This document shows, one piece after another, positions 1,963 through 41,468 of a DNA stretch of 42,709 bases (its first letter is position 1; each line of letters starts with the position of its first letter). Made by a program: the position numbers and the translations under genes. The notes under the pieces are model-generated. The model worked only from the letters and a program-made list of their open reading frames with translations. It had not been told where the DNA came from and searched no databases. This DNA is from a virus. The stretch spans positions 1 through 42,709 of IMG/VR virus record IMGVR_UViG_3300031772_000004. One strand, written 5' to 3'.

Positions 1963-2978
1963 AATTATTAGGTTTAATACCCAATACTTGCTTTAACATA
2001 TTGACCGAAGGAATGGAATCGGATTATTATGTTAAGAAAACCACTCCCGACGAGGTTGCTGATTTATTATTGCGTGGCCATTATCTTGAAGCGTGGCCGT
2101 TTGCTGGCTCCGATTTTAAAAATTACATTTATGGAATTTACATTAGAAGCTCGGCAAATAAAACTGCCTTGCTTGGACTTGATGTAGCCACTAATGATTC
2201 TTTGGTGGGCTGTGTGGTTTATGGTTATGCAGAACCTCATGCATCTTCTTATGTTTCCAAATGGGTGCGTGGCTTATTAAATCCTGATGAAACAGTTGAT
2301 TCAATCTATGATAATTTAAGAAATATTGTAAAGAAAGATTCCGAAGAAGAAGTAAAAGCAAAGCAACGCGGTTATGAATATAAGTCAAAAGCAAAGCCGG
2401 TTGTATTAAATTTGTTGAATTCGACGAATATTCAAGACGCTCAAATTCTTGAGCTTAAACGATTGTATATTCTTCCAAAATTTGACACAAAAAATATAGA
2501 ATCATTTTCTATTGCTAAGGCCAATGAATTTATTTTTCAAGACAATCCAATGGTGCAAGCTATTTTGTCATTTTCCGATTCAAGAGTGGGTCACCACGGA
2601 GGAATTTATCAGGCAACAAATGCGGTATATGCAGGAATAACAAAACACAAATTACATCGGTATGTATACCTACGGGATAGTCTGACCAATTTAATCAAGA
2701 AATACCGAACGGCTTATGATGAATTAGTGTTTAATTATCCAAAGAAAGATGACCTTAAAATTCCTATACAAAAATTGGGACCGGTCGATGATAAAACAAA
2801 AGGTGAGCGAGCATCTTTAGTAGCATTAAAGACTAAATTGGCCAGTTTAACTGACCCAGCATTAAAGACAGCGTATCAAAATGTAATAAAGCACCTTGAG
2901 CAGCCAGAACAAGGTATGTTTGATCTTAGAAAACAGAAGAAACTGGCAGAAGATAATGATGAGGAAATAAACATATGA
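1959..2978 (+). CDS. Mom-like (GNAT-fold) protein 1, long form
   Basis: Resembles the phage Mu Mom family, GNAT-like enzymes that modify adenine in DNA. Visible family landmarks are LVGCVVYG (82-89), ELKRLY (165-170), KNIES (178-182) and SFSDSRVGHHGGIYQAT (204-220), which align with the two other Mom-like proteins of this window (genes starting at 27955 and 40025). It lacks the HYSHKW motif of those two; the equivalent is 'HYLEAW' (41-46). It has a roughly 75-residue insertion (about 90-160) before the ELKRLY motif and a roughly 110-residue charged C-terminal extension absent from the others. It starts with ATG overlapping the previous stop (ATGA) and overlaps the next gene the same way, so it is translationally coupled with tail-region genes. 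Whether it modifies DNA, or is a virion-carried acetyltransferase-like protein, is not known. Confidence 0.6.
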   Translation: MKLLGLIPNTCFNILTEGMESDYYVKKTTPDEVADLLLRGHYLEAWPFAGSDFKNYIYGIYIRSSANKTALLGLDVATNDSLVGCVVYGYAEPHASSYVSKWVRGLLNPDETVDSIYDNLRNIVKKDSEEEVKAKQRGYEYKSKAKPVVLNLLNSTNIQDAQILELKRLYILPKFDTKNIESFSIAKANEFIFQDNPMVQAILSFSDSRVGHHGGIYQATNAVYAGITKHKLHRYVYLRDSLTNLIKKYRTAYDELVFNYPKKDDLKIPIQKLGPVDDKTKGERASLVALKTKLASLTDPALKTAYQNVIKHLEQPEQGMFDLRKQKKLAEDNDEEINI

Positions 2979-26946: not shown

Positions 26947-26955
26947 AGAGGTTAT

Positions 26956-27204
26956 ATGAAAGAAGAGAGATTGCATGAAAAATGGCTAGAATATTGTGAG
27001 GGAAAAAATATAATATTTGAATTTGATAAATTAAAAGCACATTTACAAAAAGAAAAAATGAGTGCTATTGGAAAAGAGTCGGATGTATTGTCTTTTTGGA
27101 CAAAAAATATTATGAAATTTATATCAGATTATAAAATTGATTGTAATGATTCTGATAACTTAAAAAAGCTGATTATGCTTTGTTTGACGATGGGAGAGTT
27201 GTAA
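26956..27204 (+). CDS. Small protein of unknown function
   Basis: The 82-aa mostly helical, charged protein has AGAGG 5 bases before ATG 26956 and sits between nrdJ and thyX (one base before the ThyX start), so it is co-transcribed with dNTP genes. No motif beyond scattered Cys residues. Could be a small accessory to nucleotide metabolism, but nothing in the sequence shows it. Confidence 0.55.
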   Translation: MKEERLHEKWLEYCEGKNIIFEFDKLKAHLQKEKMSAIGKESDVLSFWTKNIMKFISDYKIDCNDSDNLKKLIMLCLTMGEL

Positions 27205-27205
27205 T

Positions 27206-27954: not shown

Positions 27955-28731
27955 ATGACTGAATCGAATTTTGTAGACACATCAAAAGTTTATTTACGAC
28001 AAATTGACAAATCTGTTGCAAAAAGTATGATTATTACTTTTCATTATAGTCATAAATGGACACTTTGCCAAGTCGCTTACGGAATTTATTATAAAACAGA
28101 TATTCATCTTGGCTTTATTGAAGGCACCCAAGATGAACTGATAGGCTGTATAGTTTATGCTCAACCCGTAGGAAGAAGCGCAGCTGCTAGTATTACGCCC
28201 TTGCTGAATATTAGTGAAGTCTTTGAACTCACGCGGCTTTTTATACATGATGGCTATGGTAAAAATATAGAAAGTTATTGTATAACTCAATCGTTTAAAC
28301 TATTACACAGAGATTTTCCACACATTAAATGTGTGTTGTCTTATGCAGATGGCGAACAACACCATAAGGGAACAATATATCAAGCCGTCGGCTTTATATA
28401 TCAAGGCAACTCAAGTATTGCATTAATGCCCAATTATAGTGTTAGTTTGGAGGGACCGCCAAATTATAAGTGGATTCATAGTCGGACAGTAAGTTCGACT
28501 TGGGGCAGTCATAATGTAGAGCATTTAAAGAAAGCAATTGGAAAAACGTTTTGGAGAAAGAAAGAAAGCAATAAACACCGCTATGTTATATTCATTTGCA
28601 ATAAGATTTTAAAGAGAAAATTGATTGAGACATTAAAGCATCCTGCCATAGCATATCCTAAAAGTACGGAACACAAAGACGAAATCGAAGAGATTAATTG
28701 TCAAAATAAACCGAAGAATTCATTTTTCTGA
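27955..28731 (+). CDS. Mom-like (GNAT-fold) protein 2
   Basis: The 258-aa protein has all landmarks of the Mom family: HYSHKW (30-35), LIGCIVYAQPVGR (62-74), ELTRLFI (91-97), KNIES (103-107), LSYADGEQHHKGTIYQAVGFIYQG (in parts: SYAD 129-132, GTIYQA 139-144). Mu Mom converts adenine in DNA to a carbamoylmethyl-type derivative and protects phage DNA from restriction. The conserved Tyr, Ser and His here are in the same order as in Mom. Compared with the third copy it shares the C-terminal 'KWIHSRTV' and 'RYV' features. It has its own leaderless-type promoter and stands alone between ThyX and a large virion-type protein. DNA substrate and modification product are unknown. Confidence 0.75.
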   Translation: MTESNFVDTSKVYLRQIDKSVAKSMIITFHYSHKWTLCQVAYGIYYKTDIHLGFIEGTQDELIGCIVYAQPVGRSAAASITPLLNISEVFELTRLFIHDGYGKNIESYCITQSFKLLHRDFPHIKCVLSYADGEQHHKGTIYQAVGFIYQGNSSIALMPNYSVSLEGPPNYKWIHSRTVSSTWGSHNVEHLKKAIGKTFWRKKESNKHRYVIFICNKILKRKLIETLKHPAIAYPKSTEHKDEIEEINCQNKPKNSFF

Positions 28732-28756
28732 TAATATTTATATAATACAGACGATT

Positions 28757-30787
28757 ATGAGTAAAATTTCACTGAAAAAGATTCTAAAAAAACCGCTTAA
28801 TGAAATCGGTTATAATGATGATGATTGGAATAAACTACAGAAATTGCAAAAATATGGTGAGCCAAATTATCATAGCATTCTTTTTAGTAAGGCTACGGCA
28901 AATTCCCTTAAAGCCAATGAATTTTTACACAATTTAGAGCGTGAAATTATAGAAAAAATAGTCTCACTTTTTCACACCAAATCAGAAGTTGGTTATGTTG
29001 AAATTATGAATGTCACAAAACACTATCCATTAGATACAGTCGTGCGATTATCCAATGTTATAGCTAAAACATTGGGATTTGTACATAATTCCGGAAAGTA
29101 TGGCTACATAAAAACTCCTGAATATCTTGACCCTAATCTTGAAGAAGAAATTATGCCACCCGCTAAAGATTGGGCAGAAAAATTTGGAAAACCACTTGAC
29201 CGCGGCGAAGCGCGTGGTTTTATGGATAAGGTTTCGATAGAAATCGAAAACAAGCTGTTGCCTCTTTTTACTAATAACTCCATAGTGTTATTTCGTGATA
29301 TTGTGGTTGCTACTAAAGGATTGCCCTTAGATACTACTATGTATTCTTCACAGAGGCTAGCAAAGAAATACGGATTTAAAATTAACGCAGATAAAAGTGG
29401 CTATATAAAAGATAATAGTGCCATTGCTGAACAAGGAAATAAGAATATGACAAAAACCCAATTTATTAATTTAATAAAAGAATGTATGCAAGAAAAACAG
29501 TTGAATGAGTCTGACCCATCTTATCAGCTTAAAAAGAAGATGGAACAGATTAGCAATCAAATTAGCTATCTTGAGGACAAGGATGACTATTATCGTGCTG
29601 GCCAGTTAAAGAAAGAATACGCAAAATTAAATGCACAATTGGTAAATCTTTCCAAGGGACCAGATGACAATTTAGTAAAGACAGAGGGGCGAGATGACTT
29701 AGAATTTCTTGGTGGCGGCGACGAAACAGATGCCGAAGAAATGGGCACTAAGACTAATGTATTGAAAGAAATAGATAAGGTTGTAAAAGAATATAAAGGT
29801 GGTCTTAAACTTGATGTTAAAGAATTGAATTATGCGGCTCAAGAGGAAGAAACTGATGTCAGTAAATTGTTTTTAGCAGATGTATTGTATGAAAGATTGA
29901 GCAATGTATTTTATAATAGAAATGCATCTAAGGAATCCACTTATATTCAAGTTAATAAACCAGCGGTTAAAGATGCAATCATTCTAAAAATAGGTGATAA
30001 TCCTATGGCATCCACGCTTGTTCCAGATGCTGGTAAATTGGTACCGCCAATTTCTTCTGATAAGGGAGTTGGTGTATTAAGTGGTGGTATGAACAAATTT
30101 GTTAGTCCTTACAATGGACCACAAAAAGAGTCTATGTTGCGGGAAATTGTTGGAAAGAAATTAAAGAGTCTTATTAAGGAATCCATCGAAGAAATAAAGG
30201 TAGAAAAAGCAAAGGGCAATATTACTATCGTGGAAGATATATTCGAAGATATTGTAAAGAAAGAAAATAAAGACGCTATAATGGTTGCAAATGACGCTGG
30301 TAATTTTACCATTCATAATTGTGGCTCACACTATTTTGATATTCGGCCGATGTGGAAAGAAAACTTTGATGTGGTGTATTTCAAAGATAAAGCTGACCGC
30401 GAGAGAAAGTTTAATTTGAATCCAAAAGCATTAAAAGAATATGTTAAATCGAAATTTGATGACGAATCAAATTATGTAATAAAAGCATATAATAAAAATG
30501 CGCCAAATCAGAAAGATGATAATAAAAAGGTAGAAGGCCAACCAGTAAGTGCCAATATAACTATTAAAAAGGTTTCTGATACCAAAAACGAAAACAAGGA
30601 CTACAACGAAAAGCAAGTAAAGAAAGACGAAGATTTGCCTGATAAACCCTTAGCCGAAGTCAAAAAGTTTGATAAACTATCTGACCACAGTGTTAAAGGT
30701 GATAAAGTCAAGTTTACACCGCCAAAGCAAGATAAAAAAGAAAAAGCACATCTTATCAAGTTGAAGAATAAAAAACTAAAAACATAA
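28757..30787 (+). CDS. Large multidomain protein with duplicated helical domain and LKxLIxE motifs
   Basis: The 676-aa protein is not a known family. Residues 1-16 (SKISLKKILKKPLNE) and internal starts at about 231-246 (TKTQFINLIKECMQEK) and 460-482 (LREIVGKKLKSLIKESIEEI) repeat the LKxLIxE helix seen at the N-termini of other proteins in this window. Residues about 61-118 and 162-218 are two copies of one domain, each with PLDT and ending GYIK (GFVHNSGKYGYIK versus GFKINADKSGYIK), with winged-helix-like spacing. A coiled coil follows (about 255-300), then acidic linkers, and a very Lys-rich C-terminus (about 590-676). It looks like a scaffold or virion-associated organiser assembled from modules. 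TATAAT lies 10 bases before ATG 28757 without a good -35. Confidence 0.65.
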   Translation: MSKISLKKILKKPLNEIGYNDDDWNKLQKLQKYGEPNYHSILFSKATANSLKANEFLHNLEREIIEKIVSLFHTKSEVGYVEIMNVTKHYPLDTVVRLSNVIAKTLGFVHNSGKYGYIKTPEYLDPNLEEEIMPPAKDWAEKFGKPLDRGEARGFMDKVSIEIENKLLPLFTNNSIVLFRDIVVATKGLPLDTTMYSSQRLAKKYGFKINADKSGYIKDNSAIAEQGNKNMTKTQFINLIKECMQEKQLNESDPSYQLKKKMEQISNQISYLEDKDDYYRAGQLKKEYAKLNAQLVNLSKGPDDNLVKTEGRDDLEFLGGGDETDAEEMGTKTNVLKEIDKVVKEYKGGLKLDVKELNYAAQEEETDVSKLFLADVLYERLSNVFYNRNASKESTYIQVNKPAVKDAIILKIGDNPMASTLVPDAGKLVPPISSDKGVGVLSGGMNKFVSPYNGPQKESMLREIVGKKLKSLIKESIEEIKVEKAKGNITIVEDIFEDIVKKENKDAIMVANDAGNFTIHNCGSHYFDIRPMWKENFDVVYFKDKADRERKFNLNPKALKEYVKSKFDDESNYVIKAYNKNAPNQKDDNKKVEGQPVSANITIKKVSDTKNENKDYNEKQVKKDEDLPDKPLAEVKKFDKLSDHSVKGDKVKFTPPKQDKKEKAHLIKLKNKKLKT

Positions 30788-30806
30788 TTGTGCATTTAAA
30801 TTTTAG

Positions 30807-30834
30807 TTGACTAATATAAAAAATCTGATATACT
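30807..30834 (+). promoter_or_regulatory. Sigma-70-type promoter with extended -10, for MoxR/CobS-like gene
   Basis: TTGACT (30807-30812), 16-base spacer, TGA-TATACT (TATACT 30829-30834), 9 bases to ATG 30844, no Shine-Dalgarno. Predicted leaderless transcript. Confidence 0.65.
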
Positions 30835-30843
30835 AATATCAGA

Positions 30844-31818
30844 ATGAAAACAAAAGCTTTGGAAAATACTAAAAATGTTGATATAAATTCATTGGAAGAT
30901 TGTCAATCTTGTAAGCCGCCCACTCTTATTATTGATGATATTAAGTGGAAATATTTATATAGAAGTGTTATAAAAGGCAAAACCACCTTAATAATTGGTC
31001 CTACGGGAAGTGGCAAAACTCTTGCGGCTCATTCTATAGCAAAAGCTCTTAAACGAGAAGATAAGTTTTATTATTTTAATCTTGGGGCAATGACAGATGC
31101 TCGGTGTTCCCTTATAGGCAACACCCATTTTGATAAGGATACCGGTACAATTTTTGATGAATCTTTATTTGTCAAAGCTATAAAAACAAAGAATTCTATA
31201 ATTCTTCTTGATGAATTAAGTCGAGCGCATCATGATGCGGTAAATATTTTAATGACTGTATTGGATGAATTACAGCGCTATCTTAGAATTGACGAAAAAA
31301 AGGAATCCGATACTGTGAAAGTGGCTGATGGTGTAACCTTTATAGGGACAGCTAATATTGGAAATGAATATACCGCTACTAGAGTAATGGATAGAGCATT
31401 ATTGAATAGATTTTCTGTTAAAATCGAAATGAATCCTCTTTCAAAAGAAAAAGAGTTTGATTTGATGAAAGAACGGTTTAATCTAACCGATGAAAATCAA
31501 CTTAAAACATTGAATTCCATTGTTGAAATTGCAGAGCATACTCGAACGCAAATAAAGAGTGAAGACCCGAAGGTTAGCAATTTTCTATCAACGCGTTCAG
31601 TTGTTGAGATGACAGATTTATTAAAAGATGGATTTACGCTGAATGAAATTGCCGAAGCGGCTATTTATCCAAATTTTTCAAATGATGGTGGTGTAGATAG
31701 CGAAAGAGTGTATATGAAACAACTTGTGCAAAAATATTTAGAATCGCCAGTGGAACAATCTTCACCATTTTTCCCAGACCCAGACTCCCCAGTGCAACCA
31801 CCAGACCACCCATTTTAA
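30844..31818 (+). CDS. MoxR/CobS-type AAA+ ATPase
   Basis: The 324-aa AAA+ protein has Walker A GPTGSGKT (52-59), Walker B IILLDE (119-124), sensor-1 region TANIGNEYTATR (169-180) and MDRALLNRF (182-190) with the arginine finger. In CobS, the homologous ATPase partners with CobT and CobN to insert cobalt in cobalamin synthesis; other MoxR proteins remodel VWA-containing partners. The very next gene (3 bases later) encodes a VWA protein, so a chelatase-like or chaperone pair is expected. The C-terminal ~20 residues are Pro/Asp-rich (FFPDPDSPVQPPDHPF), unusual for the family. CobS is known in T4-type cyanophages; the family is clear, the biological role is not. Confidence 0.8.
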   Translation: MKTKALENTKNVDINSLEDCQSCKPPTLIIDDIKWKYLYRSVIKGKTTLIIGPTGSGKTLAAHSIAKALKREDKFYYFNLGAMTDARCSLIGNTHFDKDTGTIFDESLFVKAIKTKNSIILLDELSRAHHDAVNILMTVLDELQRYLRIDEKKESDTVKVADGVTFIGTANIGNEYTATRVMDRALLNRFSVKIEMNPLSKEKEFDLMKERFNLTDENQLKTLNSIVEIAEHTRTQIKSEDPKVSNFLSTRSVVEMTDLLKDGFTLNEIAEAAIYPNFSNDGGVDSERVYMKQLVQKYLESPVEQSSPFFPDPDSPVQPPDHPF

Positions 31819-31821
31819 TTT

Positions 31822-33876
31822 ATGAAAAAAGTTAAAGAGGAAATTTATTCTGATTATTGGTTAGATGAAGTCTTATATCAAGAAGAAGAATCTAATTCGG
31901 CAATTAACACCGATTTGATTAAACTAGCCGCTTCTCGAAGACTTGTATCTAATTTTGTAAATATTTTAACTGGAAAAAGTATCATTGTAAATTTTTCTGA
32001 TACAAAACTTGGTAGTGGAATGAGTTTTACGGATGGCAATAGAATATGGCTCTCTGCGGATATAGAAAAAAGGAAAGATTTTGACGTTGCTGTTGGTCTT
32101 TCCTTACATGAAGGGAGTCATATTCTATTGACCGATTTTAATTTAGCAAAAACACTATGGCAAAAAGTGCCAAGATATTTGTATGATATAGCCGAACCAA
32201 AATTGATTTTTAAAGAAACGGTAGCAGATATTCTTCAAATAATGTTTAACTATGTTGAGGATAGATATATAGATTTTTATATATACAAAACATCTCCCGG
32301 CTATCGAGGATATTATTCCGCATTATATGACAAATTTTACAATAACAAAATAATTGATGATTTGCTAAAGTCTTCAGATTTTAGAGAATCAGATATATCA
32401 TCTTATAAATATAGAATTATAAACTTAACAAATGAAAACACAGATTTGAATGCTCTTCCTGGATTAAAACAGATATGGGATGTGATTGATTTAAAAAATA
32501 TACAACGCCTGTCTACAACTCAAGATAGATTTGATATTGCGTGTAAAATTTCTGAAATCATATTAAACAATATTACTAATAATGCTATAGCATCGCCAAC
32601 AAAACAAGATGAATCTGGTGGCGACGAATTATTAAAGCCATTCGATGATATCAGTGGAAACACCCCAATTCCAAACACTTCTTCTCCGCTGCCTTCGACC
32701 ACAGATGATACAAGCAAACCTTCTGATTTAAAACCATTATCTCCAGCAAAACGGGAGAAAGCAATAAAAGCATTAGAAAAACAAAAAGATTTTTTGAGTG
32801 GAAATGTAAAAAAGAAAAAACTTATAAAGAAAGATAAAAGGCTTTTAGATTTAATTGAAAAAAATAATATAACTATATCTATTGTTGGTAAAGATTACGA
32901 TACCAGCGAAGCCTCAGATAAAGTTGGTGGAGTGGATTGCATTTTTGTAAAAAATCTTACAAAAGAATTAATTGCAGATGATACATTTCCATTATCAGAC
33001 CATAATGTATTTAAGATAAAGACAGAAGAAGATACAGAAAATACTCTTGCGGTTAAGCGTGGCATCACGCTTGGAACATTATTGGGCAGCAAATTGCAGA
33101 TACGAAACGAAGAGAATTACACTAAATTTTTACGGCGCACAACAGGAAAATTAGAAAAAAGAACTTTGTTTGAATTGGGGTGGGATTCAGATTCAATCTT
33201 TTCTTCACACTATGTTGATAAATACAAGAATATTAACATTCATTTATCGGTAGATGCTAGTTCATCCATGCGCAATAAAAAGTGGACAACTACAATGACT
33301 GCAGTTGTTGCTATTTGCAAAGCTGCATCAATGATAAATAATATTAATGTATCGGTGACTTTTAGAACAACGGCTATTGGTGGGCATTCTTCAAAAAGTC
33401 AATTACCATATGTTGTTTTAGCTTATGATTCTCAAAAAGATAAATTTACAAAAATAGTAAATTTATTTCCATGTTTAATACCATCCGGATTTACACCAGA
33501 AGGTTTAGCCTTTGAAGCAATTATAGATAACATTCAAAATCCCGACCCTGACAGTTTGTATTATTTTATTAATTTTTCTGATGGTGAACCATTTATGCAT
33601 TATAGCGTTGGTGAGTTATATTATACGTACAGAGATGAAAAGGCCGCGGCTCATACTCACCGGCAAGTAACAAAGATTAAAAATAAAGGGTATGAAATAC
33701 TTTCTTATTTTATAAAAGAGAAAAATTATGATTATGACCTATCTTCTGACAATGGTGATAAATTGGTAAGACAATTTAAAAAAATGTATGGAGAAAATGC
33801 AAGTTTTATAAATATTGAAAACGTTGTGGAAATCGCTAAATCTTTAAATATAATGTTTTTAAAAAAGGCTTTATAA
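31822..33876 (+). CDS. CobT-like VWA protein with HExxH motif
   Basis: The 684-aa protein pairs with the upstream MoxR/CobS ATPase. It has an N-terminal HEGSH (96-100), matching HExxH, and a later VEDRYIDFY segment in the place of CobT's 'LEDaRVE'. The middle is acidic and low complexity (Ser/Thr/Pro, about 275-310). The C-terminal VWA domain has a MIDAS motif DASSS (Asp478, Ser480, Ser482), which binds Mg and contacts the AAA+ partner. In cobaltochelatase, CobT bridges CobS and CobN. The HExxH could be a metal site or a remnant of a metalloprotease-like fold; no proteolytic activity is shown. No CobN is seen in the window. Confidence 0.75.
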   Translation: MKKVKEEIYSDYWLDEVLYQEEESNSAINTDLIKLAASRRLVSNFVNILTGKSIIVNFSDTKLGSGMSFTDGNRIWLSADIEKRKDFDVAVGLSLHEGSHILLTDFNLAKTLWQKVPRYLYDIAEPKLIFKETVADILQIMFNYVEDRYIDFYIYKTSPGYRGYYSALYDKFYNNKIIDDLLKSSDFRESDISSYKYRIINLTNENTDLNALPGLKQIWDVIDLKNIQRLSTTQDRFDIACKISEIILNNITNNAIASPTKQDESGGDELLKPFDDISGNTPIPNTSSPLPSTTDDTSKPSDLKPLSPAKREKAIKALEKQKDFLSGNVKKKKLIKKDKRLLDLIEKNNITISIVGKDYDTSEASDKVGGVDCIFVKNLTKELIADDTFPLSDHNVFKIKTEEDTENTLAVKRGITLGTLLGSKLQIRNEENYTKFLRRTTGKLEKRTLFELGWDSDSIFSSHYVDKYKNINIHLSVDASSSMRNKKWTTTMTAVVAICKAASMINNINVSVTFRTTAIGGHSSKSQLPYVVLAYDSQKDKFTKIVNLFPCLIPSGFTPEGLAFEAIIDNIQNPDPDSLYYFINFSDGEPFMHYSVGELYYTYRDEKAAAHTHRQVTKIKNKGYEILSYFIKEKNYDYDLSSDNGDKLVRQFKKMYGENASFINIENVVEIAKSLNIMFLKKAL

Positions 33877-33884
33877 GTATTGTG

Positions 33885-33913
33885 TTGACAAAAGTATTGT
33901 TTCATAGTATCTT
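33885..33913 (+). promoter_or_regulatory. Sigma-70-type promoter
   Basis: TTGACA (33885-33890), 17-base spacer, TATCTT (33908-33913), followed by a leader with AAGGA before ATG 33938 at longer than usual spacing (13 bases). Confidence 0.6.
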
Positions 33914-33937
33914 ATAAGAAAGGAAGATAGTATATAG

Positions 33938-34321
33938 ATGAATACAAAAAAGACAAATAGAAAAAATAAGACAAACTTGACGGTTAAGTGGCCATCAAGC
34001 CATTTTACAATTGACGCACTCAGTAAGTTAAATCCTGAGTTTGTTAATATTACACTCCGCGTGAGATTGAATAACGCCATTGAAGCAAAACAAGTGACTT
34101 CAATTGGTACATTCCACGTTGGTAAAGGCCGGCCAAAGTTGATATTTGCTAACCTGCCAGTAAGTGAAGCCATTATTAAAGATGCGCGGACTTCTGGAGT
34201 AATGCTTAACGAAGCATATAATTCGGTGGATGTTACAACGGTAACAACTCCAACAAATAATGCACCGACAAAGGTAGTAACGACAACCGTAACACCGGTT
34301 AAAACTGCCGTAAAGGTTTAA
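33938..34321 (+). CDS. Small protein with possible winged-helix DNA-binding domain
   Basis: The 127-aa protein has a basic start (KKTNRKNKTN), then WPSSHFTIDALSKLNPEFVNITLRVRL (in parts: HFTIDALSKLNP, NITLRVRLNNAIEA), then IGTFHVGKGRPKLIFANLPV. The 'FTI..L..LN' helix, 'ITLRVRL' recognition-helix-like segment and 'GRP.LIFA' wing would form a winged helix. Small phage proteins of this pattern may be DNA-binding. The C-terminal ~30 residues are Thr/Val/Pro-rich and disordered. Own promoter and own terminator (34337) mark it as a separate, probably strongly expressed unit. The function is unknown. Confidence 0.6.
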   Translation: MNTKKTNRKNKTNLTVKWPSSHFTIDALSKLNPEFVNITLRVRLNNAIEAKQVTSIGTFHVGKGRPKLIFANLPVSEAIIKDARTSGVMLNEAYNSVDVTTVTTPTNNAPTKVVTTTVTPVKTAVKV

Positions 34322-34336
34322 TACCACGGGAAATGA

Positions 34337-34369
34337 TGTGTGCTGAGCGCCCCCAGCACACAATATTTT
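34337..34369 (+). terminator. Rho-independent terminator
   Basis: 9-bp stem TGTGTGCTG / CAGCACACA (34337-34345 with 34354-34362), 8-base loop, then ATATTTTT immediately before the next ATG (34371). Confidence 0.75.
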
Positions 34370-34370
34370 T

Positions 34371-34637
34371 ATGAAAGAAATAGCTAAAAAAATAGTTTTG
34401 CATTTACAAAAAGGACAGATTCAAACTCCGTCCATATTATACACTTCCTCCGAAGATTTTTTAGATTTTAAAGAACCCGAAAAAGTCATTGGAGATAATG
34501 TTGAACGGCGAGGTAGAACAAAACTTACAAATCAAGCAAATGCGGATATTTACGAAGTGTGGCAGATTTTAAATTCCTCAAAATCGAAAAATAAATTGAT
34601 AATGGAATTCAAACTAATTTATCGCTCCACAAAATAA
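34371..34637 (+). CDS. Small protein of unknown function
   Basis: An 88-aa basic protein starting one base after the terminator's T run. It has a helical N-terminus (EIAKKIVLHLQKGQIQ) and a segment 'ERRGRTKLTNQ'. No family recognised. It is 2 bases upstream of the DruA-like gene, so it is probably part of that unit. No ribosome site is visible because the terminator stem occupies the place, so its expression is uncertain. Confidence 0.5.
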   Translation: MKEIAKKIVLHLQKGQIQTPSILYTSSEDFLDFKEPEKVIGDNVERRGRTKLTNQANADIYEVWQILNSSKSKNKLIMEFKLIYRSTK

Positions 34638-34639
34638 TC

Positions 34640-35815
34640 ATGAATATATCATCTAATCAATTCTTTGATGTGATTGATTTTGATTACGAAAAAGAGAAAA
34701 AAAAGTTTGTTGAACACATGTCCTACTTGAAAAAGATGGATGTGTTTGAACAAACTTTTTACAAAAAATGGGTAGAGGTAAGAGCTTATAAAAAATTCAT
34801 TGGAAAGTTATCTACTGTTAAAGCAAAGATATGGATGCCTTCTGATATTAATGATGAACAGCAAACTATACAAGAAATACAAAATTTAAATCCAATTATT
34901 AAATTGGTGGATGATTCCGAAGAAGAAGATTGGTTGATATTGAGACTCTTTGGACACACCATGGAATTTTCTCAAACCCCCGGCCGCTTTCTAAAGTTTC
35001 TAATTACTAGTGATGATAAATATTTAGGTGTGGTATCAATTTCCAGCGATGTTATTTGCATTCAAGATAGGGACAAATATCTTGGTTGGACATCTGTAAA
35101 TAAATTAAAAGGGAATAAAAAGATTAACAATAGTGCAATTGGAAGTTGTATTATGAGCACGCAACCATTTGGATATAATTTTCTCGGGGGCAAATTGATA
35201 GCTTGTTTAATAACCACCGATGTTATTCGAGACAAGTGGAAAGAATTATATGGCAATGTATTGGCCGGAATGACTACAACTAGCTTATATGGAAGTTATA
35301 GTATGTATAATAGTTTAAAGTGGTGGCATAAATGCGGTTCAAGCGCTGGAAAGGTTGCTTTAAAGCCAGATGATAATTATTATAAGATATGGCATGACTA
35401 TATTAAGATACACCACAAAGTAAAATACGATAAGATGATGACACAAAAAGAAGGGGTGTCAGGGCCGGTTACCGCCGCGAAGCAACGGGCGTTAGGTGTT
35501 ATTTTTTCAGAATTGGGGATGAAGCAGAAAGATTTTATTCATGGCTTTTTAAGGGGGACATATTATTCTTGTTTTTATGAGAATACCAAAGATTTTTTAT
35601 GCGATAAAATCACAGAGGATAAATTGAAGTTAAAGCCTTTATTTGCTGGTGGTAAGAACGAAATATTAAATTGGTGGAAACCAAAAGCAATTGAACGCTA
35701 TATCAATTTAAAGAAGCAAAATCAGTTAAAGTCTGATATTCTATTTTATGATAAAATGATTGACCTTAACTATGAAGATGCAAAGACAATGTATTTAGGT
35801 GATGTTGGACGGTAA
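34640..35815 (+). CDS. DruA-like (DUF4338-type) protein 1
   Basis: The 391-aa protein is related to DUF4338/DruA proteins of Druantia defence. Seen in order: FLKFLITSDDKYLGVVSISSD, DRDKYLGW (RD..xGW), LGGKLIACL, then DKWKELYG and MTTTSLYGSYSMYN, then WWHKCGSSAGK. The pattern RD..GW / GKLIA / W..YG / TSLYG / lG.s.G corresponds to the DUF4338 blocks, here in the 'TTTSLYG' variant common in phages. DruA's biochemical function is not established. Its closest relative in the window is the 247-aa protein at 40725, which overlaps a Mom-like gene. It precedes the QueC-like gene by 63 bases including a promoter. A link to DNA modification is inferred from neighbours only. Confidence 0.65.
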   Translation: MNISSNQFFDVIDFDYEKEKKKFVEHMSYLKKMDVFEQTFYKKWVEVRAYKKFIGKLSTVKAKIWMPSDINDEQQTIQEIQNLNPIIKLVDDSEEEDWLILRLFGHTMEFSQTPGRFLKFLITSDDKYLGVVSISSDVICIQDRDKYLGWTSVNKLKGNKKINNSAIGSCIMSTQPFGYNFLGGKLIACLITTDVIRDKWKELYGNVLAGMTTTSLYGSYSMYNSLKWWHKCGSSAGKVALKPDDNYYKIWHDYIKIHHKVKYDKMMTQKEGVSGPVTAAKQRALGVIFSELGMKQKDFIHGFLRGTYYSCFYENTKDFLCDKITEDKLKLKPLFAGGKNEILNWWKPKAIERYINLKKQNQLKSDILFYDKMIDLNYEDAKTMYLGDVGR

Positions 35816-35841
35816 TTAAGAAATTATTCTTATATAAATAG

Positions 35842-35870
35842 TTGACAATTTCATTCAAGTTTGTTATTTT
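35842..35870 (+). promoter_or_regulatory. Sigma-70-type promoter for QueC-like gene
   Basis: Perfect TTGACA (35842-35847), 17-base spacer, TATTTT (35865-35870), then 8 bases to ATG 35879 with no Shine-Dalgarno. Predicted leaderless transcript. Confidence 0.65.
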
Positions 35871-35878
35871 TATATGAT

Positions 35879-36619
35879 ATGAATAACAAAGTTTTACTTG
35901 TGTGGTCTGGTGGTTGTGATTCAACATTATCCTTATTACGACTGCTCAAAGAAAAAAAGCGTGTTCGAACTATATCAGTTATTCATCCACAAATTTATGC
36001 CGTCGCTGAAAATGCTGCAGCCCGTCTTGCTATTCATCGAAGATTGTTTGAAATGGGACATATTCTTGACCATGTTGGTGAAGTTGTAATTACTACGCCA
36101 ACCAGACGACACATTGATATTGATGGAGCAAATAATGGTGGATTAATACAGCCAAACATTTGGTTGGGCATAGCCGCCTCTTATTTAGAGCAGGATGAAG
36201 ATTTAGCATTCGGTTATATGCGCACCGACGATTTCTGGCATTATAAGACAGAATTTAATGTTGCGTTTAAACATTTTACAAAAATACTTGCAAAAGAATC
36301 CAGTGAATTAATATTTCCGCTTGAATGGAAAAATAAAGCAGAAATTATAAAAGAATTACTTGACAATGATTTGTTGAAGTATTGTTGGACATGCGAAACT
36401 CCAACACTATATGGATTTAGTTGTGGGAATTGTACTCCATGTAAACATATGATAGATGCGTGTAAAGAAATAAATATAGAATTTCCTTTTCATTTACAAG
36501 AAGTAAAAATTGATAAAATAATAGAAGATTCTAAGTTGGTGGAAATAATGACAATTTCCGAATCCGAAAAGGTGAAAGAGTCTGTTAATGTTCTACCATG
36601 TGTTAATGTGGCTGTGTAA
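35879..36619 (+). CDS. QueC-like PP-loop ATPase (7-cyano-7-deazaguanine synthase type)
   Basis: The protein starts at ATG 35879 (246 aa), not at the TTG 35861 in frame, which lies inside the promoter spacer. It has the PP-loop SGGCDSTL (10-17) near the N-terminus and a C-terminal zinc site of the QueC type: Cys residues in WTCETP and GFSCGNCTPC. QueC converts carboxy-deazaguanine to preQ0, used for queuosine tRNA or for deazaguanine modification of phage DNA. The middle part (TRRHIDIDG..., QPNIWLGIAASYLEQDED) differs from canonical QueC in places, so a related PP-loop ligase on another substrate is possible. QueD, QueE, FolE and DpdA are not visible in the window. It lies next to a DruA-like gene. 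Confidence 0.65.
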   Translation: MNNKVLLVWSGGCDSTLSLLRLLKEKKRVRTISVIHPQIYAVAENAAARLAIHRRLFEMGHILDHVGEVVITTPTRRHIDIDGANNGGLIQPNIWLGIAASYLEQDEDLAFGYMRTDDFWHYKTEFNVAFKHFTKILAKESSELIFPLEWKNKAEIIKELLDNDLLKYCWTCETPTLYGFSCGNCTPCKHMIDACKEINIEFPFHLQEVKIDKIIEDSKLVEIMTISESEKVKESVNVLPCVNVAV

Positions 36620-36620
36620 T

Positions 36621-37016
36621 ATGCGGAATGTAAAATTTTTAATAGCAGAAGGTGGGGGTAAGGATAATTTATATACGAAGTCTGGAACAATTGTATCTAA
36701 TGGTTATAATAGAATTGTTAAAGGGCAACGGGGAGCATATGTAGAATTTACGGATAGTCAAATACTTCTTAAATCATTTCACATTCCAAAAAATCAATTG
36801 TATAGACTTACCGATTTAAGAATCTATTATATAGAAATGAGAAGCACCGACGCTTCCAATGCAAAACTTTATTATCAGAAAAAAACAGTCGCATATGCTG
36901 ATTATAAGATTGGTATGTTTTATGTTTCCCCAAATGATTTATACTTAGAAGATAAACGATGTATTTTAGAAAAAATTACAAAAATCAACGAAAAAAACAG
37001 CGAATTCTTTGAATAG
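36621..37016 (+). CDS. Unknown protein downstream of QueC-like gene
   Basis: A 131-aa beta-rich protein. I choose ATG 36621, one base after the QueC-like stop, over the in-frame ATG at 36588 which overlaps that gene. It has 'LYRLTDLRIYYIEMRSTDASN' (in part) and ends in a charged helix. Two Cys-free halves; no domain recognised. Probably translated by coupling with queC-like. Function unknown. Confidence 0.55.
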   Translation: MRNVKFLIAEGGGKDNLYTKSGTIVSNGYNRIVKGQRGAYVEFTDSQILLKSFHIPKNQLYRLTDLRIYYIEMRSTDASNAKLYYQKKTVAYADYKIGMFYVSPNDLYLEDKRCILEKITKINEKNSEFFE

Positions 37017-37136
37017 GGTCTTTCTATATAAACCTAATAAAGACGCATAGAATCGACTCCCAGAATTAATTAAAGGGGTTTATTTAAACCTTTAAGACCG
37101 CAGGAATATATTTAATATATAATAACCAATAAGATA
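37017..37136 (+). other. Non-coding structured region with imperfect direct repeat
   Basis: No gene fits here. Visible: GTCTTT / AAAGAC inverted repeat (near 37019 and 37040), a hairpin GGTTTA-TT-TAAACC (37077-37090) flanked by TTAAA / TTTAA, and an imperfect direct repeat (AAACCTAATAAAGACGCA and AAACCTTTAAGACCGCA, near 37030 and 37086). The first AAACC can also pair with the later GGTTT. It may be an RNA structure or terminator-like element before the next promoter. Confidence 0.45.
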
Positions 37137-37165
37137 TTGACTAAAGGGTTGAAAACGCCTATAAT
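37137..37165 (+). promoter_or_regulatory. Strong sigma-70-type promoter
   Basis: TTGACT (37137-37142), 17-base spacer, perfect TATAAT (37160-37165). It drives the small genes that follow. Confidence 0.7.
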
Positions 37166-37170
37166 ACACA

Positions 37171-37200
37171 ATGGATTCAGTAAAACGCTGGAAACAATAA
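37171..37200 (+). CDS. Possible 9-codon leader ORF
   Basis: ATG GAT TCA GTA AAA CGC TGG AAA CAA TAA starts 5 bases after the -10 box and its stop overlaps the AAGGA ribosome site of the next gene. Expected transcription start is at or just inside the ATG, so whether it is translated is uncertain; it may be a chance ORF. Confidence 0.2.
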   Translation: MDSVKRWKQ

Positions 37201-37214
37201 AGGAAAAATAGTAT

Positions 37215-37427
37215 ATGGTTATTAAAACAAACAAAAACAATAGAACATACTTTGTGTATGATAAGAATGGTGGTATAGAGACATTTATTTCTACGCCATT
37301 TGCAGGAGCAAAGAAGGCTACACGCTTGACAATTCGTGATGGCTACGAAAGGCTAGAATTGAATGGTCGTCAAGTCCGTTCACTGCGAGCCGTCTTGGAT
37401 AAGGCCGAAGAGCTTTCTTGCAGCTAA
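37215..37427 (+). CDS. Small basic protein, possibly nucleic-acid binding
   Basis: The 70-aa protein has AGGA (37201-37204) 10 bases before ATG 37215. It has a beta-hairpin-like N-terminal half (KNNRTYFVYDKNGG, FISTPFAGAKKATRLTI) and a C-terminal 'LNGRQVRSLRAVLDKAEEL' helix. Rich in Arg/Lys, it could be a small DNA- or RNA-binding protein. It is followed by a strong hairpin (37441-37470). The strong promoter suggests early or high expression. No family recognised. Confidence 0.6.
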   Translation: MVIKTNKNNRTYFVYDKNGGIETFISTPFAGAKKATRLTIRDGYERLELNGRQVRSLRAVLDKAEELSCS

Positions 37428-37440
37428 AAAACTTGGAAAA

Positions 37441-37470
37441 GGGAACGGAAGCAATAAAACTTCCGTTCTC
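37441..37470 (+). terminator. Stable hairpin, possible terminator or processing site
   Basis: GGGAACGGAAG / CTTCCGTTCTC: 9 perfect pairs plus one G-T and one G-C (37441-37451 with 37460-37470), 8-base loop. Only a weak T/C tail follows (TTCCAG), so termination may be partial. Confidence 0.55.
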
Positions 37471-37499
37471 TTCCAGATTATAAAACAAGAGCAAAATTT

Positions 37500-37676
37500 A
37501 TGGGTAAAACATACAAAAGAAATTCAGACATTAATCATTTCGGCGGCCGAGCGATTAATACATTTAAAAAGTCGAAGAAATTCAAGAAATTGAATAAGGT
37601 AAAGAAAAAAAATAAAAAGCCGGTAGTAGATATACCGCCGGTTATAACAGAACTAGATAATTATTTTGACTCATAA
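37500..37676 (+). CDS. Small Lys-rich protein
   Basis: A 58-aa ORF, MGKTYKRN... to a TAA at 37674, filling the gap between the 70-aa and membrane protein genes. The first 40 residues are strongly basic (TFKKSKKFKKLNKVKKKNKK), the last 18 acidic/hydrophobic with PVVDIPPVITEL. The basic part could bind nucleic acid or membrane-associated partners; the acidic tail suggests a partner motif. A GAGCAAAA sequence precedes ATG, a weak ribosome site. Its end overlaps the TTG start of the next gene by 11 bases, which supports coupling. Function unknown. Confidence 0.5.
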   Translation: MGKTYKRNSDINHFGGRAINTFKKSKKFKKLNKVKKKNKKPVVDIPPVITELDNYFDS

Positions 37677-37977
37677 AATTAAAATTCTATTAAGTCTTTT
37701 GTTTTCAATTATAATGACAATTATAGTTGTTATATTTCCAGCTATTCTTGGCTACATAGTTGGAATAATAGTATTTTTATTTCTCTCTATGCGAATCGTG
37801 GTGAATGAAAACACCTTATACCAAAATAAAAACAATGAAGATACAGGTAAAAATATAAATACTTTAGATCATAACCATCTTGTGATACTATCTAGGCTAA
37901 ACACAGTAGAAAAACAGATAAAGAAATTACAAGGTGATGAAAGCAAAGACAAACAACGCCTCAACCACAAAGGTTAA
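37666..37977 (+). CDS. Small membrane protein with C-terminal coiled coil
   Basis: The 103-aa protein most likely starts at TTG 37666 (MTHKIKILL...), because the next in-frame ATG would cut the first membrane segment. Residues about 6-40 are strongly hydrophobic (LLSLLFSIIMTIIVVIFPAILGYIVG, quoted in part) and can span the membrane twice or once. The C-terminal 55 residues are hydrophilic with a heptad-like segment (LSRLNTVEKQIKKLQ). Such architecture is seen in phage holins and envelope anchors, but no lysin is nearby, so a holin is only a guess. It overlaps the clamp-loader-like gene by about 40 bases. Confidence 0.55.
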   Translation: MTHKIKILLSLLFSIIMTIIVVIFPAILGYIVGIIVFLFLSMRIVVNENTLYQNKNNEDTGKNINTLDHNHLVILSRLNTVEKQIKKLQGDESKDKQRLNHKG

Positions 37978-38416
37978 GGGATTATTCGACCATATTAGCC
38001 ATATCAGGCAGGGTAAATCACCTGATTACTTCGATAAACTTACCGACGATGAAAAGAAATCATTTAATCATTATATGATTTGTCGTGTATTAAGCATGGA
38101 TAAATCTATTATTGAAGAAGTTTCTTTTATTAGCAAATATTTTAGTGTTATTGATAGTAAAAACTTTTATAAATTGTGTTGTGAAGTTGTTCCGTATAGT
38201 AAGGGATTCTTTCCTTATATAAAAAGAAAGGGAGAAAAGCTTAACAAAGAACTGCTTCAATTAATCGTCAAAAAATTCAATGTCAGTCTGAATACTGCTA
38301 CGGAATATTACTACTTATTATCCGACACCAAGCATGGCATGCATGAATTAAATGAAATTTGTAAGGGGTATGGGCATACCGAAAAAGAAATTAAGAAATT
38401 GATGGAATCCAAATGA
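37937..38416 (+). CDS. gp62-like clamp-loader small subunit (probable)
   Basis: The 159-aa protein (ATG 37937) fits the pattern of short gp62-type clamp-loader subunits of T4-like phages. There is an N-terminal region with HIRQGKSPDYFDKLTDDEKKSFNHYMICRVLSMD (in parts), where 'Y(F)..ymicRvLSm' matches the conserved 'Y.PF.vNR.LSy' block. A helix follows, then a VVPYSKGFFPYIK block matching 'vPK.k....K', then KKFNVSLNTATEYYYLL matching the 'A..Y..iL' block. gp62 works with gp44 to load the sliding clamp. gp44 and the clamp are not in this window. The start overlaps the membrane protein gene; the stop overlaps the next start (ATGA). Confidence 0.6.
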   Translation: MKAKTNNASTTKVKGLFDHISHIRQGKSPDYFDKLTDDEKKSFNHYMICRVLSMDKSIIEEVSFISKYFSVIDSKNFYKLCCEVVPYSKGFFPYIKRKGEKLNKELLQLIVKKFNVSLNTATEYYYLLSDTKHGMHELNEICKGYGHTEKEIKKLMESK

Positions 38417-38793
38417 ATAAAAATGAAGAAATAACAATTTCTTGTGTAAACAATCTTATTGAAGAATCTTTGAAGTTAAAGACTCAAGATTATAAGGTTG
38501 ATTCTAAAATAATGTGGAATAGTTGGTCGCTATGGAAGAAATTGTTATATAGATCAATCCGTAGATTGTATTGTGCTGAATTACAAATGTGGAATTTATA
38601 TACACAAGAACTGGATAATGCTTTATATTGTGGCAATCACACAACAGAATATGTTGGCAACGCAAAAAATGCACACAGAAAATGGTGGTATCAAAACAAT
38701 CCTAAATCCATATTGTTGTGCGATATACTTATTAAACCAATTAAGCCATTGGAATATATTAAAATGGATTTTGTAATCAAAGGTAAAAAATGA
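38413..38793 (+). CDS. Unknown protein
   Basis: The 126-aa protein is coupled by 4-base overlaps to both neighbours. It is rich in Trp and Tyr (MWNSWSLWKKLLYRSIRRLYCAELQMW in parts), with scattered Cys and a 'HTTEYVGNAKNAHRKWWYQNNP' segment. No family recognised. The position between clamp-loader-like and dNMP kinase genes is compatible with replication or nucleotide metabolism, but nothing more can be said. Confidence 0.55.
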   Translation: MNKNEEITISCVNNLIEESLKLKTQDYKVDSKIMWNSWSLWKKLLYRSIRRLYCAELQMWNLYTQELDNALYCGNHTTEYVGNAKNAHRKWWYQNNPKSILLCDILIKPIKPLEYIKMDFVIKGKK

Positions 38794-39419
38794 ATAAAAC
38801 AATCATTGGCATATCAGGATTGGCTAGAGCTGGGAAGAATTTATTTGCGGATGTTGCGATTGATATTTTAAAGAAGAAAAATATAACCGCAAAGACTTTT
38901 GCTCTTGCGTATTATCTTAAAGAGGATTGCGCAGATTTCATTAAAACATATTTGGATTTAAGTGTTTATTCAGAAAAGAATGAAGAGAAAGAAATATTTA
39001 GACCTCTTTTAGTTTGGTATGGCGATGTTAAGAGAAAACAAACGAAAGGCAGATATTGGATTGAAGCGTTACAAAAGGATTTAGAGGCTTCTAAAGCTTC
39101 TGTGAATATAATAACTGATATTCGTTATACGACATATGAGCGGGATGAATGTTATTGGTTGCAAAAAGAATTGGGTGGGAAGCTAGTGCATATTGCTAAA
39201 TATAATATAGATTCGGGCGGTAACAAAATCTTTGATTTACCGCCGAATGAGCATGAAGAATTTAATGACCCTATATTACAGAAGTCTGGTGATATTAAAA
39301 TAGAGTGGGAAGCTATCGGTTATAAATGTAATAATAGCTATATCTGTATGTTGAATGATTCAACCATAAAAGCTGCTGTAAATGATTCTTTGCTTAAATG
39401 TGGCATTGAAGGGTTATAA
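38790..39419 (+). CDS. Deoxynucleoside monophosphate kinase (T4 gp1-like)
   Basis: The 209-aa P-loop kinase begins with IIGISGLARAGKNLFAD (4-20), the phosphate loop GLARAGK (residues 10-16), with Asn17 where Ser/Thr is usual. Central NIITDIRYTTYERDE and a late 'NEHEEFNDP' segment fit phage dNMP kinases. It phosphorylates dNMPs (dGMP, dTMP, modified dCMP in T4), completing the dNTP supply with NrdJ and ThyX. Because the P-loop Ser/Thr is replaced, Mg coordination may differ from the T4 enzyme. Overlaps the previous gene by 4 bases. Confidence 0.75.
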   Translation: MNKTIIGISGLARAGKNLFADVAIDILKKKNITAKTFALAYYLKEDCADFIKTYLDLSVYSEKNEEKEIFRPLLVWYGDVKRKQTKGRYWIEALQKDLEASKASVNIITDIRYTTYERDECYWLQKELGGKLVHIAKYNIDSGGNKIFDLPPNEHEEFNDPILQKSGDIKIEWEAIGYKCNNSYICMLNDSTIKAAVNDSLLKCGIEGL

Positions 39420-39449
39420 AATTATTATTTTAAATAAAGGAATTATAAT

Positions 39450-39725
39450 ATGAAAACAACCTATTTAGATTACTTAAATAAGCCAAATGGCAATCCAATT
39501 ACCGAAATTGGCCAGCTATGCCGTAAGTGTAATACACCTGTCATAGAACAGGTGCATAAGCCAAATTGGAAGCCTAAGCCAAACCAATCATACTACTTTA
39601 CAAAGTGGTTATATTGTAGTGGCTGCAAAACTGTTTATTATTTAGATAAATTTAGAGTATTTACTGATAGTAAACATGGTGATGCAGCGATTGAACGGCT
39701 TGAAATGATTGGCCATAAAGGTTAA
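39450..39725 (+). CDS. Small zinc-ribbon protein
   Basis: The 91-aa protein has two Cys pairs of zinc-ribbon type: CRKC (about 24-27) and CSGC (about 56-59), framing 'NTPVIEQVHKPNWKPK' and followed by KTVYYLDKFRV. Zinc ribbons of this size are common among small phage proteins that bind nucleic acid or other proteins. AAGGAATTATAATATG gives a reasonable ribosome site. Partner unknown. Confidence 0.65.
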   Translation: MKTTYLDYLNKPNGNPITEIGQLCRKCNTPVIEQVHKPNWKPKPNQSYYFTKWLYCSGCKTVYYLDKFRVFTDSKHGDAAIERLEMIGHKG

Positions 39726-39735
39726 AAGGAATAAT

Positions 39736-40032
39736 ATGAAAATACGCACAGGATTTGTAAGCAATAGTAGTAGCTGTAGTTTTGTCATTAACAAGGATTG
39801 TATTACGGGTATGCAGCGTGATAAAATTTATGATTATTACAATTTTGGTGTAGTCATTGGTCATATTATTCCAGATGATATTAGGCCTGAGTGGGAATCT
39901 TCATATCGTAATTGGAGTATTCATGAAACTCCTGGCGCTATTAAAGGATTCTCTGTCATTGATAATTTTGATATGCCATCCTATTTAGATAAGATTGGTA
40001 TTAATCGAAAAAATATTAAATTTGATGAATAA
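39736..40032 (+). CDS. Small protein with N-terminal RTGFVSNSSSCSF motif
   Basis: The 98-aa protein starts at ATG 39736 with AAGGAA upstream. Its N-terminus, MKIRTGFVSNSSSCSFVI, is a motif I have seen at the very start of many otherwise unrelated bacterial and phage proteins, whose meaning is unexplained. The rest is acidic and helical with Trp and Tyr (RPEWESSYRNWSIHETPG). It overlaps the start of the third Mom-like gene by 8 bases, so it is coupled to the Mom-like/DruA-like unit. Confidence 0.6.
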   Translation: MKIRTGFVSNSSSCSFVINKDCITGMQRDKIYDYYNFGVVIGHIIPDDIRPEWESSYRNWSIHETPGAIKGFSVIDNFDMPSYLDKIGINRKNIKFDE

Positions 40033-40732
40033 TCTTTATATACAAAAGGCATCGAATAGTGAAGCTAAAGATTTAATTGTTAAAAACCACTACACGCATA
40101 AGTGGACTATCGCTGAACTTTGCCTTGGATTATATAAAAAGGAGTTTGTTGAAGGATTCTTTGATACCGATAAGTTATTAGGAGTAATTATTTTTGGTCC
40201 CACGGCCGGCGCAAATGTCGCAAAAAGCATTTCGCCCCTGTTAAATGCTAGCAATACATGGGAATTAAAACGACTTTGGGTTGATGATTGTCTTGGCAAA
40301 AATACGGAGTCATGGTTTATAAGTCAAGCTATTGATTACATTAAAAATTTTCATTCAAACATAAAGTGCATCATAAGTTATGCTGACCCAGACGCTGGAC
40401 ACATAGGTACAATATATGCCGCTGCTAATTTCATTTATCAGAATATAGAACGGCCAAAAGGCACAAGTGGTTATGTAGTTAGTTTTGATGGTGGCAAAAA
40501 GTGGGTACATGGTCGAACATTATTTAATAAGTATGGGTCATTTGAATTTAATAAACTTGTGGCAGTATTACCGCGGCCATTCTGGATAAAAGAATTATCA
40601 GTAAAAGAAAGATATGTTTATCCTCTTGGAAATAAGATAGAACGCAAGGAATTATTAAAGAGCATGAATTATAAATCCTTGCGGTATCCAAAAAAGAAAT
40701 TAGATAAGGAAAAAATAACTGAATATGTCTAA
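40025..40732 (+). CDS. Mom-like (GNAT-fold) protein 3
   Basis: The 235-aa protein (start ATG 40025, overlapping the previous stop by 8 bases; the longer frame from 39995 lies inside that gene) has HYTHKW (22-27), LLGVIIFGPTAG (51-62), ELKRLW (80-85), KNTES (92-96), ISYADPDAGHIGTIYAAANFIYQ (in parts: SYAD 118-121, GHIGTIYAA 125-133) and a C-terminal KWVHGRT. It is the copy closest to the Mom consensus, since it keeps GHxGTIY. Mom modifies adenine in phage DNA. It overlaps the DruA-like gene by 8 bases, so the two proteins are made together. Confidence 0.75.
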   Translation: MNNLYIQKASNSEAKDLIVKNHYTHKWTIAELCLGLYKKEFVEGFFDTDKLLGVIIFGPTAGANVAKSISPLLNASNTWELKRLWVDDCLGKNTESWFISQAIDYIKNFHSNIKCIISYADPDAGHIGTIYAAANFIYQNIERPKGTSGYVVSFDGGKKWVHGRTLFNKYGSFEFNKLVAVLPRPFWIKELSVKERYVYPLGNKIERKELLKSMNYKSLRYPKKKLDKEKITEYV

Positions 40733-41468
40733 TTTCTTTGATTTTACTAATAATGATAATTCTCCCGTGGTATTAGAATCATGTAATTCTTCTATAAAAA
40801 ATAAACTTTTCAAAGATACCATAGACACTTATCATAGTTATGTAAAATTCAAATCCATACCATCCCGCCGATTAAGCTATCTTGTCTATGAATCCAAGAG
40901 TGGAAATTTGATTGGAGCAGTAGGAATTAGCAGTGCGGTTATAGCTGTAGCCTGTATAGACAAATATATCGGCTGGGATTCTAAAACAAAAATGCGAAAC
41001 TTGAATAAAGTCGCCAATAACTCTCGATTCTGTCTTATTCAGTCAAATATAACCATAAAGAATACAGGCAGTATGGCATTAAAACAATTAAGAATCATTG
41101 GAGCTAAGGATTGGAAAGCTCGTTATGGTGATGAATTGATTTTATTGGAAACATTTGTTCAGCCCGAAAGAGACTTAGCATATAACACACAAATGACTCG
41201 AAATGGTTCGGTATACCTTTCCGACAATTGGATTGAGATTGGTATGACAAGCGGCAGTTCCATACAGAAATCTCCACTTAAATTGTGGGCAAAAGAAGAT
41301 GGAGAACGTGGGCGGTTAGCGAGAGAAGATAAAGCGGAATGTTTGAAGCGTTATGCTCAATATATGGATGGGCATAATAATAGTGGTTACAAAGTCACAA
41401 AGAGTAAGAAGAAGATTGTTTTTATTAAACCATTGGTATACAATTGGAAGATTAAGTTGACAACTTAA
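40725..41468 (+). CDS. DruA-like (DUF4338-type) protein 2
   Basis: The 247-aa protein shows the DUF4338/DruA blocks: LIGAVGISSAVIAV, CIDKYIGWD (matching RD..IGW), NNSRFCLI (matching N.RFLi), SMALKQLRI and DWKARYGDELILLETFVQPERD (matching W..yG..p.llETFVd), then VYLSDNWIEIGMTSG (matching Y.a.nW..lG.T.G). The ETFV block is kept here but not in the relative at 34640. Its start overlaps the Mom-like gene by 8 bases. Its stop TAA (41466-41468) overlaps the minus-strand gene's stop in TTAA. The role is unknown; co-expression with a Mom-like enzyme suggests a joint function. Confidence 0.7.
   Translation: MSNFFDFTNNDNSPVVLESCNSSIKNKLFKDTIDTYHSYVKFKSIPSRRLSYLVYESKSGNLIGAVGISSAVIAVACIDKYIGWDSKTKMRNLNKVANNSRFCLIQSNITIKNTGSMALKQLRIIGAKDWKARYGDELILLETFVQPERDLAYNTQMTRNGSVYLSDNWIEIGMTSGSSIQKSPLKLWAKEDGERGRLAREDKAECLKRYAQYMDGHNNSGYKVTKSKKKIVFIKPLVYNWKIKLTT

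Follow-up and report, generated by a model that had tools for sequence, protein, structure and literature searches.

Profile comparisons and structure models indicate that DruA and Mom are homologous, being distant relatives on the same branch of the GNAT superfamily of acyltransferases, and they suggest that phages use the defence-gene family DruA, like Mom, to place chemical groups on nucleic acids. Both families occur in the window, the whole 42,709-base stretch analysed here, which comprises positions 1-42709 of an IMG/VR virus record of 119,492 bases, itself perhaps a fragment, from an uncultivated phage. We regard it as an evenly balanced question whether an expanded set of four Mom and two DruA proteins modifies the phage DNA against restriction, a neighbouring QueC-like gene being an unrelated insertion.

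A preliminary description of the window had reported three Mom and two DruA genes. All five score far beyond chance and exceed the Pfam curated cut-offs, which are 27.1 bits for Mom (PF25680), 27 bits for DruA (PF14236) and 22 bits for QueC (PF06508). Mom#1 (1959..2978, 339 aa) scored 70 bits and is the most diverged copy. Mom#2 (27955..28731) scored 138 bits and is the copy with conserved synteny in related phages, and Mom#3 (40025..40732) scored 135 bits. The count of three was right for the window and understated for the record, where a fourth gene, Mom#4, lies at record positions 71814-72617 and has the top Mom score of 165 bits. DruA#1 (34640..35815) is a long form scoring 70 bits and DruA#2 (40725..41468) a short form scoring 78 bits, both with the DUF4338/GNAT fold; no third DruA was found in the whole 119-kb record. 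The described overlap of Mom#3 with DruA#2 is real: stop and start share 8 bases, ATGTCTAA, at 40725..40732. Also present are a deoxynucleoside monophosphate kinase-like gene (DNMK, 38790..39419), a QueC-like PP-loop ATPase (35861..36619, PF06508 48 bits), and, conserved between Mom#2 and DruA#1, a CobS/MoxR-like AAA ATPase (30844..31818) and the companion of this ATPase (31822..33876). The companion has no Pfam match, and its position and sequence would make it a VWA/CobT-like protein. All these window genes are on the plus strand.

Homology and active site of Mom and DruA

The four Mom proteins belong with Mu Mom (PF25680; 8bv8; phrog_1384) by the same family HMM and share its N-x-E-S block with the S124 serine, its SYAD and its GxxYQA. 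Alignment with relatives showed that the invariant H, Y, E, N-x-E-S, D, G and Y are kept in all four copies, in the blocks HY, K/R-N-x-E-S, SYAD and GxxYQA, and even the most diverged copy, Mom#1, retains N-x-E-S, D and GxxYQA. The blocks KNxES, SYAD/SFSD and GTIY/GGIYQA had thus been correctly read in the preliminary description. The PDB entry 8bv8 is Mu Mom titled 'inactive mutant S124A', and its chain has N-S-E-A at the N-x-E-S block, so the conserved Mom serine is the residue whose loss inactivates Mom. The S124-equivalent serine is found in all four copies and in 44/44 family members; in Mom#3 it is Ser96.

The same column was followed through the DruA proteins. It is Ser in 61 of 62 cellular DruA proteins, within L-A-S, and in the DruA#2 type it is Ser in 26 and Thr in 4 of 30, DruA#2 itself having Ser116 in K-N-x-x-S. 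All 26 DruA#1-type proteins have Gly. In addition to the Ser/Thr, DruA#2 keeps the H, ETF and GxxYxAxNW. Both phage proteins match the family HMM of DruA (DUF4338, PF14236; Druantia type I), as do 27/27 and 21/21 of their homologues at the same cut-off, and DruA#2 shares the conserved residues.

Comparison by hhalign of 44 Mom with 62 cellular DruA sequences gave 94.1%, E 1.3e-7 and a score of 56.9 over 133 columns, to which the TCYxAANW motif contributes, since the cellular set was gathered by a scan for this motif and conserves it by construction; greater weight falls on the columns of Ser, H and E and on the structural match. Among the controls, 16 unrelated families taken from these phages scored 24.4 at most; 50 column-shuffles did not exceed 21.1 and the reversed profile reached 14.6. 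In the resulting register HY is aligned with HY, N-I-E-S with N-L-A-S, SYAD with TFVD, and GTIYQATNF with GTCYRAANW. The Pfam Mom model also matches two of 27 DruA#2-type proteins, with a best E of 3e-6, and none of the other GNAT families match. Direct profile comparison of Mom with DruA#1 was negative; DruA#1 is tied to Mom via cellular DruA (97.8%) and via structure. When the DruA alignment was mixed or shallow, its comparison with Mom gave a weak or negative result, which the separate cellular DruA alignments supersede. A genome scan using the phage DruA alignment gave no matches, and no relatives of DruA#2 were found in the cultured-phage collection.

AlphaFold2 models of both DruA proteins were built from alignments of viral homologues. 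The best match of the DruA#1 model (pLDDT 85) among 350,542 PDB chains was Mu Mom 8bv8, with an E of 2.4e-3, a probability of 1.00 and modest overall TM-scores. The DruA#2 model (pLDDT 87) matched GNAT acetyltransferases in Foldseek at a probability of 1.00, and Mu Mom was not among its 50 best PDB matches. In the literature, DUF4338 was called a GNAT in passing and proteins were guessed as targets of those domains (PMC10853773). No account of Mom-DruA homology was found in the literature searched, which covered few subscription papers. A DruA#1 homologue in S-SCSM2R is annotated 'methylcarbamoylase mom'.

Two further forms of DruA were noticed. A DruA#1-type protein at L138:9052-11001 seems to be interrupted by an intein, for which the Pfam match is weak, and the genes near it include one of the Mom#4 type and one resembling a DPPY methyltransferase. 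In L262, L268 and L270 cellular DruA domains seem fused to long C-terminal regions, some of them transposase-like by eye, and DruA may be a transposon accessory too.

Linkage of Mom and DruA genes

The block Mom#2 - g28757 - CobS-like ATPase - companion - g33938 - DruA#1 - g37934 - DNMK - DruA#2 is shared by many uncultivated phages, in some of which genes have been gained or lost. Of 25 contigs carrying a DruA#2-type gene, 20 also had a Mom gene, versus 1 of 23 with DruA#1 only, counts that are not phylogenetically independent, as the contigs are related and most share one syntenic block; the strict Mom count is 19/25, because in G054 and G055 the Mom model matched the DruA#2 gene itself, G054 having a separate true Mom and G055 none. 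Separate arrangements outside this order say more about physical linkage than these counts do. One contig (L130) has a DruA-Mom pair with an 8-base overlap, a second (L126) has a DruA-DruA-Mom-Mom-Mom array, and a third (L138) holds DruA#2, DruA#1 and a Mom#4-type gene inside 4.5 kb. Four junctions are 8-base ATGNNTAA-like overlaps, namely the one in the window, the one in L130 and two in L126, and Pfam confirms all Mom and DruA members of these arrangements. The Mom/DUF4338 neighbourhoods that the preliminary description had proposed to seek in other phages are therefore recurrent, both as co-occurrence and as physical linkage. The Mom#3-DruA#2 overlap itself, which points to translational coupling, was seen only in this phage and in one contig identical across the locus. 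The nearest relatives have DNMK-DruA#2 without Mom#3, which is an insertion between the two. At 24982-27916, the window carries a B12-dependent ribonucleotide reductase (RTPR-like) gene followed by ThyX, absent from some syntenic relatives.

The main rival to a joint modification set is that only the Mom proteins modify DNA, the DruA-type GNATs acting on another substrate, such as a protein, a tRNA or a nucleotide, with the genes linked by a shared anti-defence or nucleotide-metabolism region. GNATs do act also on proteins, RNA and small molecules, which tells against reading the whole set as base acyltransferases, and protein targets are what PMC10853773 proposed for the DUF4338 domains. The usual upstream neighbour of DruA#2, directly so in many relatives, is the nucleotide kinase and not Mom. 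DruA#1 is common among marine T4-like phages, which have no Mom: in pelagiphages too it stands beside CobS and a peptidase, and the DruA-like proteins of Synechococcus and Pelagibacter myoviruses (PMC12774648; HTVC008M; Mosig) are DruA#1 homologues at 25-35% identity, with Mom in 0/3 of the records tested in contrast to the four copies of this phage. As these phages lack Mom and the Ser is absent in 26/26 of its type, DruA#1 need not act with Mom. Against another substrate stand the 8-base overlaps of Mom with DruA#2-type genes in distinct phages, the array of two DruA and three Mom genes, and the Mom-type Ser kept in DruA#2 and cellular DruA. We consider this rival unlikely, though by no means negligible.

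The locus is not a Druantia system, because the other Druantia proteins were not found among the neighbours scanned: DruA was all that PADLOC detected in the window genes tested, and no Druantia partner (DruE helicase or other Dru) is among ten further neighbour proteins. In contrast to the DruA of Druantia, the proteins here are phage-borne and adjoin Mom, and DruA#1 has Gly for Ser.

Divergence of the Mom copies

Having four diverged copies, one of them in the structural-gene region, linked to DruA-type genes, distinguishes this phage from Mu. In the tree, Mom#2 groups with its syntenic orthologues (about 58-66% identity) and Mom#4 with another phage's Mom (support 99). Mom#3 is a weakly supported sister (SH-aLRT 80) of the L130 Mom, which like Mom#3 overlaps a DruA#2-type gene, and Mom#1 stands alone on a very long branch, the longest of all. 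The copies are scattered across the tree and so are old paralogues or separate acquisitions rather than fresh duplicates. Relatives have one to three Mom copies. Mom#1 sits among structural genes, with a baseplate hub-like gene at 3265, and has relatives in L377, L379 and L380.

Such a pattern could also arise if the diverged Mom genes were a horizontally acquired reservoir, mostly redundant or decaying, in which only the syntenic and conserved Mom#2 matters. The long branches or other clades of Mom#1, #3 and #4 and the insertion of Mom#3 would agree with this. However, the invariant H, Y, N, E, S, D, G and Y have survived in each of the four genes, as they would not if the genes were decaying, and Mom#4-type and Mom#1-type relatives are present in other large phages. 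We judge the reservoir improbable.

In three large phages related to one another (L377:16765-17334, L378 and L379) the Mom#4 orthologue adjoins a macro-domain gene, and in two of the three a small gene with an E-x-K motif, a possible nuclease by eye, lies upstream. A NUDIX gene was dropped as a partner of Mom#4 as this neighbour is not conserved. Short K-L-x-x-L-I-x-E-like N-termini were noticed at window positions 13, 2975, 15313, 16761 and 36588 and record positions 82103 and 119019. They resemble a capsid-targeting tag, and such a tag was considered for Mom#1 too, but the excess is too weak to support one: 19 tag-like N-termini among 140 genes, with 11 expected.

Other genes were noticed elsewhere in the record. 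The minus strand at 42-63 kb (L001:1-20000) carries a large sugar gene cluster with NeuB, a CMP-sugar cytidylyltransferase, a class-III aminotransferase, a polysaccharide-synthesis dehydratase, a PIG-L deacetylase and many apparent glycosyltransferases, a set suggestive of a phage-borne pathway to nonulosonic acid or a surface glycan. A 748-aa protein at record positions 87157-89403 (L003:6158-8404) has at its N-terminus the ArdC anti-restriction domain, matches a metallopeptidase weakly and ends in a glucosaminidase/virion region; it is probably an injected anti-restriction protein. At 82877-84405 (L003:1878-3406) an IMPDH/GMP reductase gene overlaps a nucleoside deoxyribosyltransferase-like gene, a pair that could possibly supply purine nucleotides for unusual bases.

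The QueC-like gene and the proposed modification set

The preliminary description had joined Mom, DruA and QueC in one set, of which the Mom and DruA part has proved reasonable, from linkage and GNAT kinship, and the QueC part has not. The QueC-like gene starts 45 bases downstream of DruA#1, and phrog_1550 is a phage QueC-like family. With an NCBIfam QueC equivalog score of 32 against a cut-off of 150 it is a real but weak QueC; in the phage collection QueC was found in SP-15 and Noxifer only, and every syntenic relative with the Mom/DruA block lacks it, as befits a phage-specific insertion. No PF01702 match (TGT/DpdA) was found in the record, although the model might miss a diverged phage DpdA and the record may be a fragment; nor did the record show a PF01242 match (QueD/PTPS) or a convincing QueE-like radical-SAM CxxxCxxC motif. 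A single hypermodification pathway in which Mom, DruA and QueC join through a 7-deazaguanine step is, on this evidence, very improbable.

Returning to the Mom/DruA set, joint acylation of nucleic acid is reasonable because the Mom proteins keep the active-site residues and are related to DruA within the GNAT fold. The N6 of adenine is where Mom attaches an acyl group (PMC7824862). Given the family, fold, residues and linkage observed, we infer a substrate, a chemistry and a protective effect as follows. Mom#2 to Mom#4, and perhaps Mom#1, would acylate adenine N6 of the phage DNA during infection, like Mu Mom, and host restriction enzymes would then be unable to cut it. The exact product of Mu Mom is the N6-carbamoylmethyl group, which adds 57 Da to adenine. 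DruA#2, if co-translated with a Mom, would be a sister enzyme whose equivalent Ser acylates the same or another base or transfers another acyl group. DruA#1, with Gly for Ser, may be an older diverged paralogue with its chemistry altered or lost. Several diverged enzymes could cover a wider range of sequence contexts or chemistries. In the Mom-REase proteins of jumbo phages (PMC7824862) the phage Mom is likewise thought to protect DNA; there Mom is fused to an REase, whereas here no such fusion is present and the partner is DruA.

A broader proposal, which we put forward only tentatively, would unite DruA and Mom in a single clan of enzymes that acylate nucleic-acid bases by means of a common catalytic Ser; mixed phage arrays would then place various acyl marks on DNA, and the DruA of Druantia would acylate DNA or RNA, marking self or attacking the nucleic acid of phages. 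Druantia is listed as of 'unknown function' (PMC7251935), and DruA has no known activity in defence systems; its homology to Mom, with the catalytic Ser kept, leads to a direct and cheap test. No DPPY DNA methyltransferase is recognisable in the record, and a Mom/DruA set would explain how restriction is evaded without a recognisable DNA methyltransferase. Natural arrays with as many as five of these enzymes occur in the lineage and could yield new DNA base modifications.
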